32,919 nucleotides of DNA from assembly GCA_016186915.1 (NCBI GenBank), contig JACPKU010000002.1, positions 1 through 32,919 of the forward strand, read 5' to 3'. The position numbers and the translations under genes were made by a program. The stretch comes from Candidatus Doudnabacteria bacterium. Lineage in GTDB: Bacteria > Patescibacteriota > Doudnabacteria > UBA920 > O2-02-FULL-48-8. The notes under the pieces were generated by a model. It did not search any database and had not been told where the DNA came from. It worked only from the letters and a program-made list of their open reading frames with translations. This document shows, piece after piece, positions 1,572-32,087 of this stretch. Positions within the stretch are counted from its first letter, which is position 1, and each line of letters starts with the position of its first letter.

Positions 1572-2159
1572 TTATTGGCTTCCAAGCGCAAAACGAGTAA
1601 ACCTACGCACTTGGATATTTTCGCCCAATTTATTGACCTGTTCGGCGATCAGATCTTTAATCTTTTTGTCTTGGTCTCTCACCCAAACCTGCTCAAGCAG
1701 ACAAACTTCTTCATAAAATTTATCCAACTTGCCCTCGACTATCTTAGCTCTCACATTTTCAGGCTTATCCTTGATCTGTTCAAGATAAATCTCTTTCTCT
1801 TTTTCAACCATGTCCTGGGGCACTTCTTCGCGGCTTATGAAACTGGGGTTAACCGCTGCGATTTGCAAAGCCAGCTCGTCGGCCAATTTTTTAAACTCCT
1901 CGTTGCGCGCCACAAAATCAGTCTCACAATTAAGCTCCAACAACACCCCTACTTTACCGCCGGCATGGACGTAAGAAACGATCAATCCCTCCTTGGCCGC
2001 TCGCGTTGATTTTTTAGCCAGAGTTGCCTGGCCTTTTTTTCGAAGCAGGACCCGGGCGGCTTCAAAATTTTCAGCTTCCTCAAGGGCTTTCTTGGCAACC
2101 ATCATGCCAGCGCCGGTAATTTCTCTGAGTTTTTTTACATCGTCCGAAGATGCTTTCAT
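1572..2159 (-). CDS. tsf: Translation elongation factor Ts
   Basis: VKKLREITGAGMMVAKKALEEA...LNCETDFVARNEEFKKLADELALQ; adjacent to rpsB. Confidence 0.96.
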   Translation of the reverse strand: MKASSDDVKKLREITGAGMMVAKKALEEAENFEAARVLLRKKGQATLAKKSTRAAKEGLIVSYVHAGGKVGVLLELNCETDFVARNEEFKKLADELALQIAAVNPSFISREEVPQDMVEKEKEIYLEQIKDKPENVRAKIVEGKLDKFYEEVCLLEQVWVRDQDKKIKDLIAEQVNKLGENIQVRRFTRFALGSQ

Positions 2160-2884
2160 GTTTGCTCCTGTTTGGACTCAACGGCCACTGCCTGCTGGTC
2201 AAATTTCGCTTTGCCTTCACTGACCGCCTCAGCAAAAACTTGCGTCATAAACGTAATTACTTTAATAGCGTCGTCGTTGGACGGGATGACGTAATCAACT
2301 TTTGACGGATCAGTGTTGGTGTCCGTAAGCCCAATAACTTTAATCCCACTCTGGTGAGCTTCTTCCACAGGAATTTTGTCGTATTTTACATCCACTATGA
2401 ATACCGCTTCCGGCAGCCTTTTCATATCCTTAATCCCGGAAAAAAATGTCTTCATCTTTTCGATTTCGCGCTTAATCATCAACTGTTCTTTCTTGGTGTA
2501 TTTGCTGATCTCTCCGTCAGCCACCAATTTTTCCAGCCGCTCCATTTTTCTGATACTCTTCTGCACAGTGCGAAAATTGGTAAACGTCCCGCCCAGCCAG
2601 CGCGTAACCACGTAAGGCATGCCGCAAGACTCCGCGGCCTTTCTCACTCCCTCCTTGGCTTGCCGCTTGGTGCCGACAAACAAGACAACACCGCCCTTAC
2701 TCACCAAATCCTGAACGTATTCCAACGCTTCAATTAATTTTTGTTTGGTTTTTTCCAAATCTAAAATATGAATGTTGTTGCGGGCAGCGAAAATATAGGG
2801 TTTCATTTTGGGATTCCACAAAGACGTCTTGTGGCCAAAATGCACCCCTGCTTTCAACATATCAATCAACGTAATCGGCTTCAT
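2156..2884 (-). CDS. rpsB: 30S ribosomal protein S2
   Basis: LKAGVHFGHKTSLWNPKMKPYIFAARNNIHILDLEKT...VGTKRQAKEGVRKAAESCGMPYVVTRWLGGTFTNF. Confidence 0.98.
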   Translation of the reverse strand: MKPITLIDMLKAGVHFGHKTSLWNPKMKPYIFAARNNIHILDLEKTKQKLIEALEYVQDLVSKGGVVLFVGTKRQAKEGVRKAAESCGMPYVVTRWLGGTFTNFRTVQKSIRKMERLEKLVADGEISKYTKKEQLMIKREIEKMKTFFSGIKDMKRLPEAVFIVDVKYDKIPVEEAHQSGIKVIGLTDTNTDPSKVDYVIPSNDDAIKVITFMTQVFAEAVSEGKAKFDQQAVAVESKQEQT

Positions 2885-3068
2885 GGTTGATCCTTAATAC
2901 TTCTGTTGTCTTCTTCTGCTTTTTGGGATCTCGGCTAGATTGCTCAATCTCTATGAGCATTTTAACCGGACAGGACCTTAAACATCAGACAACATGTATG
3001 ATTAATAGCTCTACTATCTTAACACACTCCGGACAAAAAAACAAGCCTTCCTTTGGATGGTTTTAAGT

Positions 3069-3140
3069 CCATACCGCTTGATTGAAGAGTTCAGCGAATT
3101 GGTACGTCATAGCACTATAGGTTAATAGTGAACCAATTGG
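3069..3140. repeat. Direct repeat R1 (left bracket of purN-purD cassette)
   Basis: CCATACCGCTTGATTGAAGAGTTCAGCGAATTGGTACGTCATAGCACTATAGGTTAATAGTGAACCAATTGG; aligns without gaps to 5386-5457 with 7 mismatches over 72 bp. Confidence 0.95.
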
Positions 3141-3196
3141 TAATAGTCCATTATTTGAAGAGGTTAAACCTGTTCACCCGTCCACCTGCCAGAGCG

Positions 3197-3234
3197 AAAA
3201 AAACAAGGGTGATCGACTTGGCAGTCAATCACCC
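3197..3234 (-). terminator. Rho-independent terminator of purN-purD
   Basis: Stem GGGTGATcGACT/AGTCaATCACCC (3207-3234), followed on the minus strand by TTGTTTTTTT. Confidence 0.88.
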
Positions 3235-3262
3235 GCTCCCCTCCCGCAACCCTCCTTCTTGC

Positions 3263-4534
3263 TTACAGGCCCGCGGCGATGTCGGTCCGCAAGTCCTTGC
3301 CTTCAAACTGGATCAGCGCGGCTGCCTCGTAGGCCCGGGTTCTGGCTTCATCGTAGTTCTTGCCCAGACCCTCGACGTCAAGCACCCGACCGCCGTCTGT
3401 AACCACAATGCCATCTTCGTTGAATTTCGTCCCCGCGTGGAACACCAGCACTCCAGGCAACCGCTCGGCGTCGGCAATCCCGCTGATCGGGAATCCTTTC
3501 TCGTATTTGCCAGGGTAGCCGCCGGAGACGAGCACCACGCAGACTACCACCTGATCAGACCACTCTGCCTGAACGCCGGACAGCTCTCCCTTTACCGCTG
3601 CCAGAAGCAGGTCGAGTGGATTCGAGCGAAGCAGCGGCCAGATTACTGAGGCTTCGGGGTCGCCCATCCGGGCATTGAACTCGATGACATAGTTTTTCCC
3701 TTCCTCCGTCATCATCAAGCCGCCATACAGGAACCCGACATACGGATTGCCTTCGCGTGCCATGCCGGACACGGCCGGCCTCATGATGTCAGACACGATC
3801 CCCTGAAGCGCCACGTCAGAAATCCCCGGCACCGGGGCGTAGCCGCCCATGCCGCCGGTGTTGAGACCCTGGTCGCCATTGAACCGACGTTTGTAGTCCC
3901 TGGCCGGCCGAAACGGCAGAAATGTCTTGCCGTCCGACAGCCCGATGCAGGAAGACTCGCGACCCGAAAGCCGCTCTTCGATGAGCAGACGCTTCCCCGC
4001 CTCGCCGTATTTGCCCCAGACCAACATATCTGCGATGGTCTCGCGGGCCTGTTGATAATCGTAAGGCAAGACTACACCCTTGCCTTCACAAAGCCCGTCT
4101 GCCTTCAGCACGATCTTGTTTGCGCCGATTTTGACCACGCGAGCCTGAGCCTGGTCCGCGTCTGTGTAGTCCCTGAACTCAGGGACTCGGATTCCGTTGC
4201 GCTTCATGAAATAGCGCGCCCACACCTTACTGGTCTCCAACTGCGCCGCCTGCTTACTCGGTGCGAGGATCAACAGCCCGAGGTCGCGGAACCGGTCCGC
4301 GATTCCGACAGCGAGTGCGGCTTCTGGCCCGATCACAGTCAGGTTGGGTTGTGTCCTGTAAGCGAATTTGAGCAGGCTCTCCACATCTTGGTGCTCAATC
4401 GCCACGCATCGGGCAAGCTGGGCGATCCCAGCATTCCCCGGCGCACAGAAAATCTCTGCCGAAGGGTTGTGTTGACGCAGAGCCCAGATGGTCGCGTATT
4501 CCCTCGCGCCCTTGCCTGTCATCAGTATCTTCAC
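3263..4534 (-). CDS. purD: Phosphoribosylamine-glycine ligase-like (ATP-grasp) protein, GTG start
   Basis: GPEAALAVGIADRFRDLGLLILAPSKQAAQLETSKVWARYFMKRNGI, KADGLCEGKGVVLP, LNTGGMGGYAPVP, EFNARMGDPEASVIWPLL; SD AGGAGG upstream of GTG. Confidence 0.9.
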   Translation of the reverse strand: MKILMTGKGAREYATIWALRQHNPSAEIFCAPGNAGIAQLARCVAIEHQDVESLLKFAYRTQPNLTVIGPEAALAVGIADRFRDLGLLILAPSKQAAQLETSKVWARYFMKRNGIRVPEFRDYTDADQAQARVVKIGANKIVLKADGLCEGKGVVLPYDYQQARETIADMLVWGKYGEAGKRLLIEERLSGRESSCIGLSDGKTFLPFRPARDYKRRFNGDQGLNTGGMGGYAPVPGISDVALQGIVSDIMRPAVSGMAREGNPYVGFLYGGLMMTEEGKNYVIEFNARMGDPEASVIWPLLRSNPLDLLLAAVKGELSGVQAEWSDQVVVCVVLVSGGYPGKYEKGFPISGIADAERLPGVLVFHAGTKFNEDGIVVTDGGRVLDVEGLGKNYDEARTRAYEAAALIQFEGKDLRTDIAAGL

Positions 4535-4543
4535 GGTGTCCTC

Positions 4544-5284
4544 CTATCCGTTCGGGTAAGCCTGCTTGGCTGTTTCGATTGCAGCAAGCCAAGCTTGGCG
4601 TTCGTTCCTCTGCACCAGGCGGTTTTCCCTTTTGATTGGCCTCAGCTTGCCGAACTCCGACCGCCGATACAGCACGTTAATCACCAACTTGTGCTCGTGC
4701 GGCAGGACACGGTCAGATAGAATCCCGGCGGTATCGTTCTCGTACAGCCGTACCGGATGGATCCCGACCAATGGCCCGCCGTCCACTTCGGCCGTGAGCA
4801 CATGCACCGAGGCTTCGGTGCAAAACGGCCGCTGGATCCGCTTGGCGAATTCCAGCACTGCCTGATGCACAGCCTTGCCGTGCATACCTTGTCCACCGAA
4901 GTGAAGGTGTCCCGGATCCAAGGGTCCCGGGTGCTGGTTGTAGGACTCAATCACATCCGTCACAAAACCCGGTACAGTTCGCAGAAAGCCGCACAGAACG
5001 AGCACGTCCATGCTACGTTGTACGCACTCGTGAAGCAGAGCCTCACCGAAAGACTGGTCCTCCGGGTACTCGCTCCTCGACAGCACGATCCGGTCCTTGT
5101 CCGCAACACCGCAGATCCTGGCCTTGTCCAAGCCGCCGGCCCCGGCGTTGTTGGAAACAATCAGTACCGGATTCACCCGTCGCAGCATGTTATCGCAGCC
5201 GCAAGCAAGCAGCACCGAGCGCATGGTCGTTCCACCGCCCGAGATGGCAATGGCCAAGTTCAACTTCTCAAGCGTTCTTTTCAT
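4544..5284 (-). CDS. purN: Phosphoribosylglycinamide formyltransferase-like (PurN family)
   Basis: LAIAISGGGTTMRSVL, NQHPGPLDPGHLHFGGQGMHGKAVHQAVLEF, VHVLTAEVDGGPLVG: N-x-H and D of the formyltransferase site are present. SD GAGGAGGG favours the start at 5284 over the ORF-track start at 5314. Confidence 0.85.
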   Translation of the reverse strand: MKRTLEKLNLAIAISGGGTTMRSVLLACGCDNMLRRVNPVLIVSNNAGAGGLDKARICGVADKDRIVLSRSEYPEDQSFGEALLHECVQRSMDVLVLCGFLRTVPGFVTDVIESYNQHPGPLDPGHLHFGGQGMHGKAVHQAVLEFAKRIQRPFCTEASVHVLTAEVDGGPLVGIHPVRLYENDTAGILSDRVLPHEHKLVINVLYRRSEFGKLRPIKRENRLVQRNERQAWLAAIETAKQAYPNG

Positions 5285-5385
5285 CACTCCCTCCTCGGGA
5301 TTGTCGGTGTTCAAACTTCAAGGTTTGCGCCTTGATCTTACAGGATATCAAAACCCCTGGTCTTGGTAAAGCATAAAACTACAGC

Positions 5386-5457
5386 CCATGCCGCTTGATT
5401 GAGAAGTTCAGCGAATTGGTACGTCATAGCACTATAGGTCGATCATGAACCAATTGG
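5386..5457. repeat. Direct repeat R2 (right bracket of purN-purD cassette)
   Basis: CCATGCCGCTTGATTGAGAAGTTCAGCGAATTGGTACGTCATAGCACTATAGGTCGATCATGAACCAATTGG; partner of 3069-3140. Confidence 0.95.
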
Positions 5458-5555
5458 CGATATTCCTAGCTATCCCCACCAACAAGGGCTTGATTTATGG
5501 GTCAATCCGTGCTATGCTTTTTTAGCTATTCGAATGTTCATTAAACTTAGGCTTT

Positions 5556-5792
5556 ATGCGAGCAAATATCCACCCACAATATCATACTGATGCCAAAGTC
5601 GTCTGCGCCTGCGGCAACACTTTCACCACTGGTTCCACCAAGCCAGAGATGCATGTTGAAATTTGCTCCAACTGCCACCCCTTCTACACTGGCAAGCAAA
5701 ATCTTTTGGACACCGCCGGCACCATCGAGAAATTCAAAACTCGCGCATCCAAAGCTCGCAAAAAAGTTGCTCAGCCTAAATCCAAAGCTTAA
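5556..5792 (+). CDS. rpmE: 50S ribosomal protein L31
   Basis: [60 protein letters not shown]. Confidence 0.97.
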
Positions 5793-8868: not shown

Positions 8869-9231
8869 TTACGTCCTGAGAGCCGAGATAAAATCCCCGT
8901 CGGAAGCAGTTAAAAACTGGTGTATGGCCAGCACGTCGTCAGCTGATAATGATTTGCTGTTCTTAAACCTGTGTGTATCTGATGAAGTCAGATCCGTGAC
9001 CATGCCGACTGAAAATACTTCTGGCCCATCCACAGCGATGCTGAACACCACGGAACTTTTACATCTATCACAATCGGTATGAACCAAAAGATTGGCTCCC
9101 AATGCCGGCCTGTTCTCTTTCGAATCAATAATCTTGGTCTGCTCCAAATTATACCTATGTCCACAAATAGGACAGCGCAGGATATGGGCTAACCACTCGA
9201 TTATCTTTTGAAAATCAACTCTTTTTGCCAT
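8869..9231 (-). CDS. Hypothetical zinc-ribbon protein
   Basis: 120 aa with CPICGHRY and CDRCKSSVV Cys pairs; terminator directly downstream. Confidence 0.7.
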   Translation of the reverse strand: MAKRVDFQKIIEWLAHILRCPICGHRYNLEQTKIIDSKENRPALGANLLVHTDCDRCKSSVVFSIAVDGPEVFSVGMVTDLTSSDTHRFKNSKSLSADDVLAIHQFLTASDGDFISALRT

Positions 9232-9315
9232 TTTTTTATCAACCCAGCTACGTTATATTCGCTTCTAACTTAATTTTAGAGATTTTAAAACAGCGCGTCA
9301 ATAGACGCACCACGA

Positions 9316-10419
9316 TCAGCCGGCAAACCGCACTGCCTTTTGCCGCGCCACGATGCTTTGAATGATTCCGAGAGCCAAAAAAGTGGTCAGCAAAGAGCTC
9401 CCGCCATAGCTCAACAAGGGCAGAGGAATCCCCGTAACCGGCAGAAGACCAATATTCATGCCTACGTTCACCACCACTTGAATCAAAAGCATAAACAGAA
9501 TACCGGTTCCCAAATACATCCCGAAATTATCCCGCGCCTGGATGATTGTTTTAAGCAATCGAACAAATAAAAGTAAAAATAAACCCAAGATAAAGAGACT
9601 GCCGAAGAATCCTAGTTCTTCAGCCGTGGAAGCAAAAATAAAATCCGTTTGGCGCTCAGGCAAAAACTTCAGTTGAGACTGCAGTCCCCGCCCAAGGCCG
9701 CGGCCAAACAATTCTCCTGAGCCCACGGCAATGATGGATTGCAAAACATTATAGCCTTGTCCCTGTGGGTCTTGATAAGGATCAAGAAACGTGTGGAGCC
9801 GCTGTTTCTGATAATCCTGCAAAACAGAGGCCCAGGAAAAAATCGAGAGCAGAGTAAAAATCAGGATTAAGATTGCCAAATGTTTCTTGCTAATCCTAGA
9901 AAACAAAAGCATGGCAAACCAAGTCAAAAACACAACCACGGCTGAACCCAAATCAGGTTCGATCAAAATGAGCACAACCGGAAAGCTGACGTATACCAGG
10001 GACAAAAAAACATAGCGGAAGGCCTTAAGTTTTTCCCCTTGTTGGTCCAAGTATTTCGCCATCACAATCACCATGATCAGTTTGGCAAACTCCGCCGGCT
10101 GGAACCGAAAAAAACCGAGATCTATCCATCGGGCCGATCCTCTGATTGTCGGACCTAGAAGCCAGACAGCCAGCAAGCTCGCGATCATTAACAGGTACAG
10201 CCAAGGGGTAATTTTTTTTAAATTCCTGTAATCGTAAAATGCCAAACTAACCATTCCCAAAAGGCCCCCGCCCGCAAAAATAATCTGTCTTAGTAAAAGA
10301 TTGCTCTCGCTCTCCAAAGTGGTCGAATAAATCATGAGCAACCCCAAAAACAGCAGCAAAATGCTGCTGCCAAAAACATAAAGGTCAAAATACCGGAAGA
10401 GTGCTGAAAAACTTTTCAT
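9316..10419 (-). CDS. rodA: Rod shape-determining protein RodA (SEDS family)
   Basis: Polytopic; PDLGSAVVVFLTWFAMLLFS, GSGELFGRGLGRGLQSQLKFLPERQTDFIFASTAEELGF, GLLPVTGIPLPLLSYGGSSLL. Confidence 0.95.
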   Translation of the reverse strand: MKSFSALFRYFDLYVFGSSILLLFLGLLMIYSTTLESESNLLLRQIIFAGGGLLGMVSLAFYDYRNLKKITPWLYLLMIASLLAVWLLGPTIRGSARWIDLGFFRFQPAEFAKLIMVIVMAKYLDQQGEKLKAFRYVFLSLVYVSFPVVLILIEPDLGSAVVVFLTWFAMLLFSRISKKHLAILILIFTLLSIFSWASVLQDYQKQRLHTFLDPYQDPQGQGYNVLQSIIAVGSGELFGRGLGRGLQSQLKFLPERQTDFIFASTAEELGFFGSLFILGLFLLLFVRLLKTIIQARDNFGMYLGTGILFMLLIQVVVNVGMNIGLLPVTGIPLPLLSYGGSSLLTTFLALGIIQSIVARQKAVRFAG

Positions 10420-17880: not shown

Positions 17881-17882
17881 TT

Positions 17883-17916
17883 GGACAACTACCCACCTAT
17901 CGCATGGTAGTTGTCC
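17883..17916 (+). terminator. Hairpin downstream of miaA
   Basis: GGACAACTACC...GGTAGTTGTCC, perfect 11-bp stem, right after the miaA stop. Confidence 0.6.
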
Positions 17917-17941
17917 TAAATAAAAAAGAGCTGGTCAGGCT

Positions 17942-30474: not shown

Positions 30475-30781
30475 ATGGAAGATATTTTAGACAAAACTGA
30501 ACGCTCGATGCGCTTGCGCAATTATAGCCCCCAAACCATCAAGGCATATCTGCTCTGTATAAGAGAGTATATCATTTTTTCAAAAGAAAGTGGCGCCACA
30601 AACAAGCAAAAAGCGATTGAAGAATTTTTGCTTAATAAGCACCAACGGAAACAATCGCCTGGAAAATGAGGTTGACGTGCGTTATGTCCAAGAGCTCCTT
30701 GGGCATACAAACATACGCACGACTCAAATCTATACCCGAGTGACAAATCCGAAACTTAAGAATATAAAAAGTCCTCTGTAA
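30475..30781 (+). pseudogene. Internally deleted tyrosine recombinase (Xer/phage integrase family)
   Basis: N-terminal SAM-like part MRLRNYSPQTIKAYLLCIREYIIFSKES, then after a frame change the C-terminal end DVRYVQELLGHTNIRTTQIYTRVTNPKLKNIKSPL; the catalytic core between them is missing. Confidence 0.85.
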
Positions 30782-31430: not shown

Positions 31431-31474
31431 ATACATTTGACACATCTGATACACTTTTGATACACTTCTGATAT
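31431..31474 (+). promoter_or_regulatory. Iterated operator-like repeats before the antitoxin gene
   Basis: ATACATTTG ACACATCTG ATACACTTTTG ATACACTTCTG, running into the ATG at 31473. Confidence 0.55.
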
Positions 31475-31694
31475 GTCTACAACTAAAACTAGGATCAATA
31501 TAAGTTTGTCAGATGACATAACTGATGCACTTGCGAAGTTGGCCCGACGCGACGGGATGCCTCAAGCAACTAAAGCCGCCAGGCTTTTGGAAACAGCCCT
31601 GGAAATAGAAGAAGATCAGGTTTGGGATAAGATTGCTAAAAGGCGCGATACCAAAAACGCGCGCTATCTCTCCCATAAAACCGTCTGGAAATAA
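31473..31694 (+). CDS. Ribbon-helix-helix antitoxin (type II TA)
   Basis: TRINISLSDDITDALAKLARRDGMPQATKAARLLETALE; overlaps the downstream RelE/ParE-like gene. Confidence 0.85.
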   Translation: MSTTKTRINISLSDDITDALAKLARRDGMPQATKAARLLETALEIEEDQVWDKIAKRRDTKNARYLSHKTVWK

Positions 31695-31981
31695 TGTCTG
31701 CGTTTAAGATTGCCTACCATCATCAGGTGGTTTCTCTGGACCTCCCTAAACTTTCAAGTGAATGGAAAGCAAAAATCAAGCGGGCAGTTGAAGAACGTTT
31801 GACCATTCATCCCGATCTTTACGGCAGACCCCTGCGCCGTTCCTTGAAGGGGTATCGAAAACTACGCGTGGGCGACTACCGAGTCATTTTTAAAATTGAG
31901 AAAAATACTGTTAAAATTTTGATTATTGAGCATCGATCGGTGGTTTACAGTAGGATTGACAAACGAGTCAAGAGTAACTAA
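31694..31981 (+). CDS. RelE/ParE family toxin
   Basis: LPKLSSEWKAKIKRAVEERLTIHPDLYGRPLRRSLKGYRKLRVGDYRVIFKIEKNTVKILIIEHRSVVY. Confidence 0.92.
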   Translation: MSAFKIAYHHQVVSLDLPKLSSEWKAKIKRAVEERLTIHPDLYGRPLRRSLKGYRKLRVGDYRVIFKIEKNTVKILIIEHRSVVYSRIDKRVKSN

Positions 31982-31996
31982 TCTGAACCAGAGAAT

Positions 31997-32087
31997 GGAG
32001 AGGTGCCCGAGTGGTTTAAGGGAACGGTTTGCTAAACCGTGGCGCCTAATAAGTGCCCCGTGGGTTCAAATCCCACCCTCTCCGCCA
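31997..32087 (+). tRNA. tRNA-Ser (anticodon GCT), CCA encoded
   Basis: GGAGAGGTGCCCGAGTGGTTTAAGGGAACGGTTTGCTAAACCGTGGCGCCTAATAAGTGCCCCGTGGGTTCAAATCCCACCCTCTCCGCCA. Confidence 0.95.

Follow-up and report, generated by a model that had tools for sequence, protein, structure and literature searches.

Direct copies of a dispersed palindrome, also found around a PaaX-like gene, bracket a compositionally foreign purN-purD cassette in Candidatus Doudnabacteria

The divergent genes rpsB (2156..2884, minus strand) and rpmE (5556..5792, plus strand) of a Candidatus Doudnabacteria bacterium (Patescibacteria) are separated by a purN-purD gene pair that lies between two direct repeats, R1 and R2. This arrangement raised the question of what these repeats are and whether they had any part in the arrival of the genes between them. 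The locus was analyzed in the window (the whole stretch of 32,919 nucleotides, contig JACPKU010000002.1, to which all positions without a contig prefix refer), in the rest of the genome (728 kb, 7 contigs) and in related genomes.

The purN-purD cassette and the repeats around it

The gene purD (3263..4534, minus strand), encoding phosphoribosylamine-glycine ligase, matched TIGR00877 with 450 bits. The purN-like gene (4544..5284, minus strand), for a phosphoribosylglycinamide formyltransferase, matched PF00551 with 51.9 bits and scored 68 bits against TIGR00639, under the cut-off of 150; its start was placed at the ATG at 5284, after GGAGGGAG, instead of the TTG at 5314 where the mechanical open reading frame begins. 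A preliminary description, made from the sequence of the window, had called the pair GC-rich and had seen a terminator just inside R1. Both observations were borne out. The GC content was 0.60 for purD and 0.59 for purN (GC3 of 0.73 and 0.71), compared with gene medians of 0.456 and 0.50 over 433 genes, which places both genes in the top 3–4%, and an intrinsic-terminator-like structure of the unit (3197..3234, minus strand), with its hairpin at 3207-3234 and a T-run, was found between purD and R1. Homologues of PurD were present in 18 of 49 genomes of the order (this one included), with 31–45% identity for the longer matches, so the distribution of purD is patchy.

Most family and order relatives have rpsB-tsf divergently beside rpmE(-prfA), with no purN or purD. 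The purN-purD cassette is a compositionally foreign insertion in a conserved divergent rpsB/rpmE gap, and the horizontal acquisition proposed in the preliminary description agrees both with this composition and with the gene neighbours in relatives. The gap is a hot spot, occupied in most family relatives by various other small GC-richer ORFs (loci L105-L117), and direct repeats of the R kind flanking these ORFs were found in none of them; therefore, the filling of the gap does not need R. These relatives are too distant for the exact junctions, or a target-site duplication, to be read at the rpsB-rpmE locus or at the greA-lysS locus described below.

GC-rich DNA was not confined to this locus, as about 10% of the sampled genome lay in islands with a GC content of at least 0.57 (mean 0.457), and short genes that were GC-rich and had strong SD sequences were numerous, as if acquired repeatedly. 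Elsewhere in the window, a broken tyrosine recombinase remnant (30475-30781), made up of N- and C-terminal pieces in neighbouring frames, the latter matching PF00589, was located about 1.2 kb from a tRNA-Ser gene (31997-32087). A possible toxin-antitoxin pair (31473-31981; a 73-aa antitoxin-like and a 95-aa RelE-like protein, assigned by eye) directly preceded this tRNA gene.

A repeat search of the window returned R1 (3066-3149) and R2 (5383-5466) as two direct copies of one family, 87% identical over 84 nt and spaced by exactly 2317 bp. The 7 mismatches in 72 bp claimed previously at this offset were reproduced exactly in the core (3069-3140 and 5386-5457), with 11 mismatches over the longer stretch, and the pair scored 58.7 in a self-comparison of the window versus 11.4 for the runner-up direct match. 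Nevertheless, the homology was longer than had been described, as R1 and R2 shared 84 bp with each other and each shared about 100–125 bp with a third, at C2:64.1 kb, and R was not private to the locus. Several other identities were considered for R. No Rfam or tRNA match was found at R, and the predicted RNA folds disagreed between copies, so it was discarded as an RNA family or a tRNA fragment; matches to a possible internal promoter (TATAGT, spacer 18) were not above chance expectation; and an rpsB/rpmE leader was rejected since R is missing from that locus in relatives.

The core of R, GCACTATAGGTNNAT, occurred exactly six times in the 728 kb, compared with 0–1 for the reversed control. 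The sites of this type (A-type) and of the B-type described below were counted genome-wide by pattern search, and some other dispersal counts come from about 588 of the 728 kb. Apart from R1 and R2, four further cores lay elsewhere: at C2:64.1 kb beside a tRNA-Glu gene, at C2:102.6 kb beside a tRNA-Lys gene, and twice on C5, 621 bp apart. Hence, the repeat is not specific to the locus, and the suggestion that it merely marks the target of the insertion, or was doubled when the cassette came in, is not supported, as the six genome-wide copies rule out a target-site duplication and the core also brackets another gene. An empty rpsB-R-rpmE site with a single R, which would be expected under that suggestion, was not found, as the A-type core was absent from all of the 59 relatives searched.

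Aligned A-type sites were 42 bp long, with a 14-bp arm, a 14-bp middle (AGCACTATAGGTNN or its complement) and a 14-bp opposing arm. R1 (3066..3149, plus strand) and R2 (5383..5466, plus strand) were annotated as solo extragenic palindromes of this type, with cores at 3097-3138 (AATTGGTACGTCAT-AGCACTATAGGTTA-ATAGTGAACCAATT) and 5414-5455, respectively. The homology with the C2:64.1-kb copy extended rightward from R1 to about 3185 and leftward from R2 to about 5369 (CATAAAACTAC). The four A-type solos, R1 and R2 included, were all upstream of a gene and in a single orientation (rpsB, purN/rpmE, tRNA-Glu and tRNA-Lys), and the tRNA-Glu and tRNA-Lys genes began 86 and 87 bp from theirs.

PaaX-like genes, each with its own palindrome pair

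The two copies on C5 bracketed a gene (C5:44399-44962) for a protein of 188 aa, with the ATG within one site and the stop codon just before the other. The only Pfam match of this A-type protein was PaaX_M, the Cas2-like central domain of PaaX. A GC-rich pyrE-like gene, a small ORF and a terminator (C5:45000-45788; 9000-9789 in locus L010) adjoin the A-type unit and run into the contig end; the pyrE-like gene is another nucleotide-metabolism gene next to an R site.

This gene was one of nine PaaX-like genes in the genome, all nine of which were flanked by their own palindrome pair, and 46 of the 60 genomes searched (this one included) carried one to ten of them. A flank test was applied to the PaaX-like loci with enough flank, a pair being counted when the upstream and downstream stretches shared a repeat scoring at least 13.5. 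Matching repeats just outside the gene were found in this way at 28 of 31 loci from this genome and its relatives, whereas the background was 1.25% of random positions and 10% of rpsB/purD loci. Among other families of the phylum, several PaaX-like loci were bracketed and some were not, and no flanking pair was detected around E. coli paaX (score 10.0, background).

The flanking repeats were near-perfect palindromes of 28–44 bp, with centres such as CGATCG, CGGCCG, CATATG and CCATGG, placed 0–100 bp before the start codon and mostly 0–60 bp after the stop codon; the second copy came just past the stop in almost every locus. Their sequence varied from gene to gene, related proteins having related sites, as in the case of the A and B proteins, which were 66% identical and whose sites shared ACCTAT..GC. 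The closest named relatives of the PaaX-like proteins came from Candidatus Doudnabacteria. Up to nine or ten gene/palindrome pairs were present in genomes of only ~0.7–1.2 Mb. Additionally, in the genome G022, CACGGCCGTG was found 14 times, versus 2 for the reversed control, with several copies paired about 600 bp apart, as bracketed PaaX-like genes would predict.

One of these units, element E, consisted of a palindrome, an ATG 2 bp later, a 192-aa gene and a second palindrome 7 bp past the stop codon, and was situated between greA and lysS. In most of the relatives in which both genes were seen, greA is closely followed by lysS without the unit, which indicates that E was inserted whole between these two genes. 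Several PaaX units had a shared context in related genomes (L186/L187, L188/L189 and L190/L191), and these units are therefore stable rather than hyperactive.

The AlphaFold2 model of a close relative of the protein (locus L184; pLDDT 78, with a poor N-terminal part) predicted a winged helix followed by a ferredoxin-like domain, so that the PaaX-like protein would combine, by prediction, a winged helix with a Cas2-like ferredoxin domain. A Foldseek search of the PDB with this model returned E. coli PaaX first (8a39, E 9.5e-6), then an Rv0674 entry and Cas2-type proteins. In NCBIfam, A4 members weakly matched PaaX/Cas2/VapD models, and the score against the PaaX equivalog TIGR02277 was 26.3 bits, below its cut-off of 264.55. 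The Asp of the FDIPE motif was invariant across the alignments. The HUH/Y1 transposase domain (PF01797) was not found in the protein by Pfam, NCBIfam or the fold search. E. coli PaaX, the characterised PF20803 protein, is a transcriptional repressor.

Solo palindromes and covariation of their arms

Gene-free solo palindromes were present in five of the families considered, namely A (4), B (6), G (4), E (1) and F (1), and C had 0; one D-type solo inside ychF (C2:77785) was taken as chance and left out of the counts. The B and G copies were sharply bounded palindromes. One solo of the B type (TTGGACAACTACCCACCTATCGCATGGTAGTTGTCCTA; 17881..17918, plus strand) lies in the window directly past the miaA stop codon, its cognate PaaX-like gene being at C4:5.5 kb. 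The B-type gene was found only in this genome and in G003 (of 60 genomes), with 63–66% identity, and the B-type site followed the same distribution, with 8 copies here, 5 in G003 and 0 in the 58 other genomes. All of the G003 sites shared the outer arms GTAAC..GTTAC, compared with GACAAC..GTTGTC here, and the solos of G003 were at other genes. A B-like palindrome was also noted in the rpsB/rpmE gap of one family relative (L116).

Solos were often placed straight behind a stop codon. Four of the six B solos started at most 5 bp from a stop codon, compared with 1.4% at random (P ~6e-7), and B solos and some G solos were directly behind the stop codons of ruvC, miaA and mnmA. The 3' end of mnmA carried a G-type palindrome here, a B-type one in G003 and a further palindrome in G006; most of the other relatives read had none. 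The three mnmA palindromes (L253, L255 and L264) were all within 8 bp of the stop codon. Intrinsic termination was rejected as the role of the B-type sites since no T-run was seen by eye behind the stem, and no common tetranucleotide (GTAG/CGTC head) was seen by eye beside the sites.

Furthermore, the arms of the palindromes changed together. Among the 13 B sites, the covariation score of the arms was 0.296, compared with 0.143 ± 0.025 after shuffling (reached in 0 of 500 shuffles), and pairs changed on both sides filled 18 cells versus 6.8 ± 2.0; T-G pairs were included, and shifting the pairing partner abolished the covariation. In 24 selected site pairs of the palindromes, 20 compensatory changes were counted versus about 2 expected, a figure that is biased upward because the pairs had been picked as palindromes. 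Bracketing, dispersal, co-occurrence of gene and site, and covariation of the arms are thus properties of these palindromes.

Arrival of the cassette and comparison with known systems

The third copy of the long repeat, at C2:64.1 kb, allowed the two halves of R1 and R2 to be compared separately. The left half of R2 had 0 mismatches to this copy in 46 positions and beyond, and the right half of R1 had 3 in 36, with homology running past the palindrome, whereas the outer halves diverged more (4 mismatches for the left of R1 and 7 for the right of R2), with the switch within the invariant core. On this handful of differences, R1 and R2 appear to be mosaics, the halves facing the cassette deriving from one R lineage and the outer halves from another. 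Because the inner half-repeats match the third R and the outer ones do not, the cassette most likely recombined in at a resident R, either by homologous or by site-specific recombination. A circle carrying one R and integrating into the resident copy would give the observed mosaic, and homologous recombination between repeats would leave an identical one.

On balance, R1 and R2 are probably solo palindromes of a PaaX-like gene/palindrome system that behaves like REP/RAYT. In such a system, the PaaX-like protein would bind its cognate palindrome as a dimer, and perhaps nick or process it, and the unit and its solo palindromes would spread, or would once have spread, in RAYT fashion. Such a system may mobilise DNA. 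A bolder version, proposed here tentatively, is that PaaX/Cas2-fold proteins of Patescibacteria are the enzymes of undescribed minimal mobile elements, made of one gene and two cognate palindromes, which could move themselves, their gene-free palindromes and, through pairs such as R1/R2, foreign cargo like purN-purD.

Other explanations overlap with this one in part, and the probabilities attached to all of them do not sum to one. PaaX-type transcription factors that regulate themselves could use the palindromes as operators. In that case R1, R2 and the tRNA-linked copies would form the regulon of protein A (rpsB, purN-purD or rpmE, tRNA-Glu and tRNA-Lys), R2 would regulate the cassette and the repeats would be unrelated to its arrival. 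This is suggested by the PF20803 match, by the repressor PaaX as the best structural match, by the position of one member of each pair shortly before the PaaX-like gene and by the uniform upstream placement of the A-type solos, with its similar distances to the two tRNA genes. We nevertheless regard it as doubtful, since the second copy falls just past the stop codon, the solos behind ruvC, miaA and mnmA are not at promoters, the arms covary pairwise instead of preserving one half-site sequence, and R1, R2 and the C2:64.1 copy are homologous far beyond the 42-bp core. The pairwise change of the arms, T-G pairs included, would also fit RNA hairpins at mRNA ends that are bound or cut post-transcriptionally by the Cas2-like protein; the sites at both the 5' and 3' ends of the cognate gene and behind the stop codons of others agree with this, as does, weakly, the presence of RNases in the Cas2/VapD fold. 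Many centres (CGATCG, CGGCCG, CATATG), however, are perfectly palindromic, which a hairpin loop would not need, and this explanation seems unlikely.

Two further explanations concern the cassette itself. R could be a plain repeat whose copies are incidental, with the cassette brought into a hot spot by homologous recombination of the ordinary kind between conserved flanks, as the GC-richer ORFs without flanking repeats in the gap of relatives and the abundance of GC-rich windows (~10% of the sampled genome) would allow. Against this, two of the four solo A copies flank this one insert in direct orientation, the cassette-facing halves are closer to the C2:64.1 copy than the outer halves, and solo sites were enriched near GC-rich islands (7 of 15, versus 18% of random intergenic positions; P ~0.01 in a window-based test whose observations are not fully independent); incidental copies are possible, but we lean against them. 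Direct copies of R around two different gene units, and a mosaic resembling attL/attR, also recall an integron-like attC or a tyrosine-recombinase site, with purN-purD and the PaaX-like gene as cassettes. However, the single full-length tyrosine recombinase (PF00589, C4:354.4 kb) is not beside R, no array was found, and the pairing of palindrome and PaaX-like gene accounts for the sites without an integrase, making this a very improbable origin.

The near-constant link between a PaaX-like gene and its private palindrome suggests that a repeat system is widespread in Patescibacteria. Should the protein act on the palindrome, the REP/RAYT problem would have been solved a second time by unrelated means, and the system would shed light on how Cas2-type domains acquired the handling of DNA ends and would offer a concrete route by which reduced genomes gain foreign metabolic genes. 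No such system was found described in the literature on PaaX with CPR/Patescibacteria, Cas2 or palindromes, a search with most subscription journals outside its scope that does not prove novelty.

Among known systems, REP/RAYT also has one small gene between two palindromes, with cognate solos scattered over intergenic positions and 3' ends, a palindrome preserved by complementary changes, and several families per genome; every RAYT gene has a REP on either side, with complementary mutations (PMC2817692). The system described here differs in its protein, a winged-helix and Cas2-like PaaX relative (PF20803) without a PF01797 match, in the lack of the GTAG/CGTC head, in having 0–6 solos per family compared with >100 for REP, and in flanking sites that may be direct or inverted. 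PaaX repressors (E. coli PaaX, 8a39) have the same fold of winged helix and Cas2-like domain, and the Patescibacteria set likewise has a near-palindromic site adjoining its own gene. Nevertheless, the A- and B-type proteins have 187–204 aa (174–225 aa over most of the loci read), compared with the 316 codons (951 bp) of E. coli paaX, and the Patescibacteria sites flank the gene on either side and also follow the stop codons of unrelated genes, whereas E. coli paaX lacks a flanking pair.

MITEs and composite elements resemble the present case in the non-coding copies of element ends (R1, R2 and C2:64.1, ~100 bp) and in passenger genes between two copies, but here the unit has no DDE transposase and no target-site duplication was identified. 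Integron cassettes also place a gene unit between two direct near-palindromic attC sites, yet the sites described here form no array, have no integron integrase beside them and are linked instead to PaaX-like genes.
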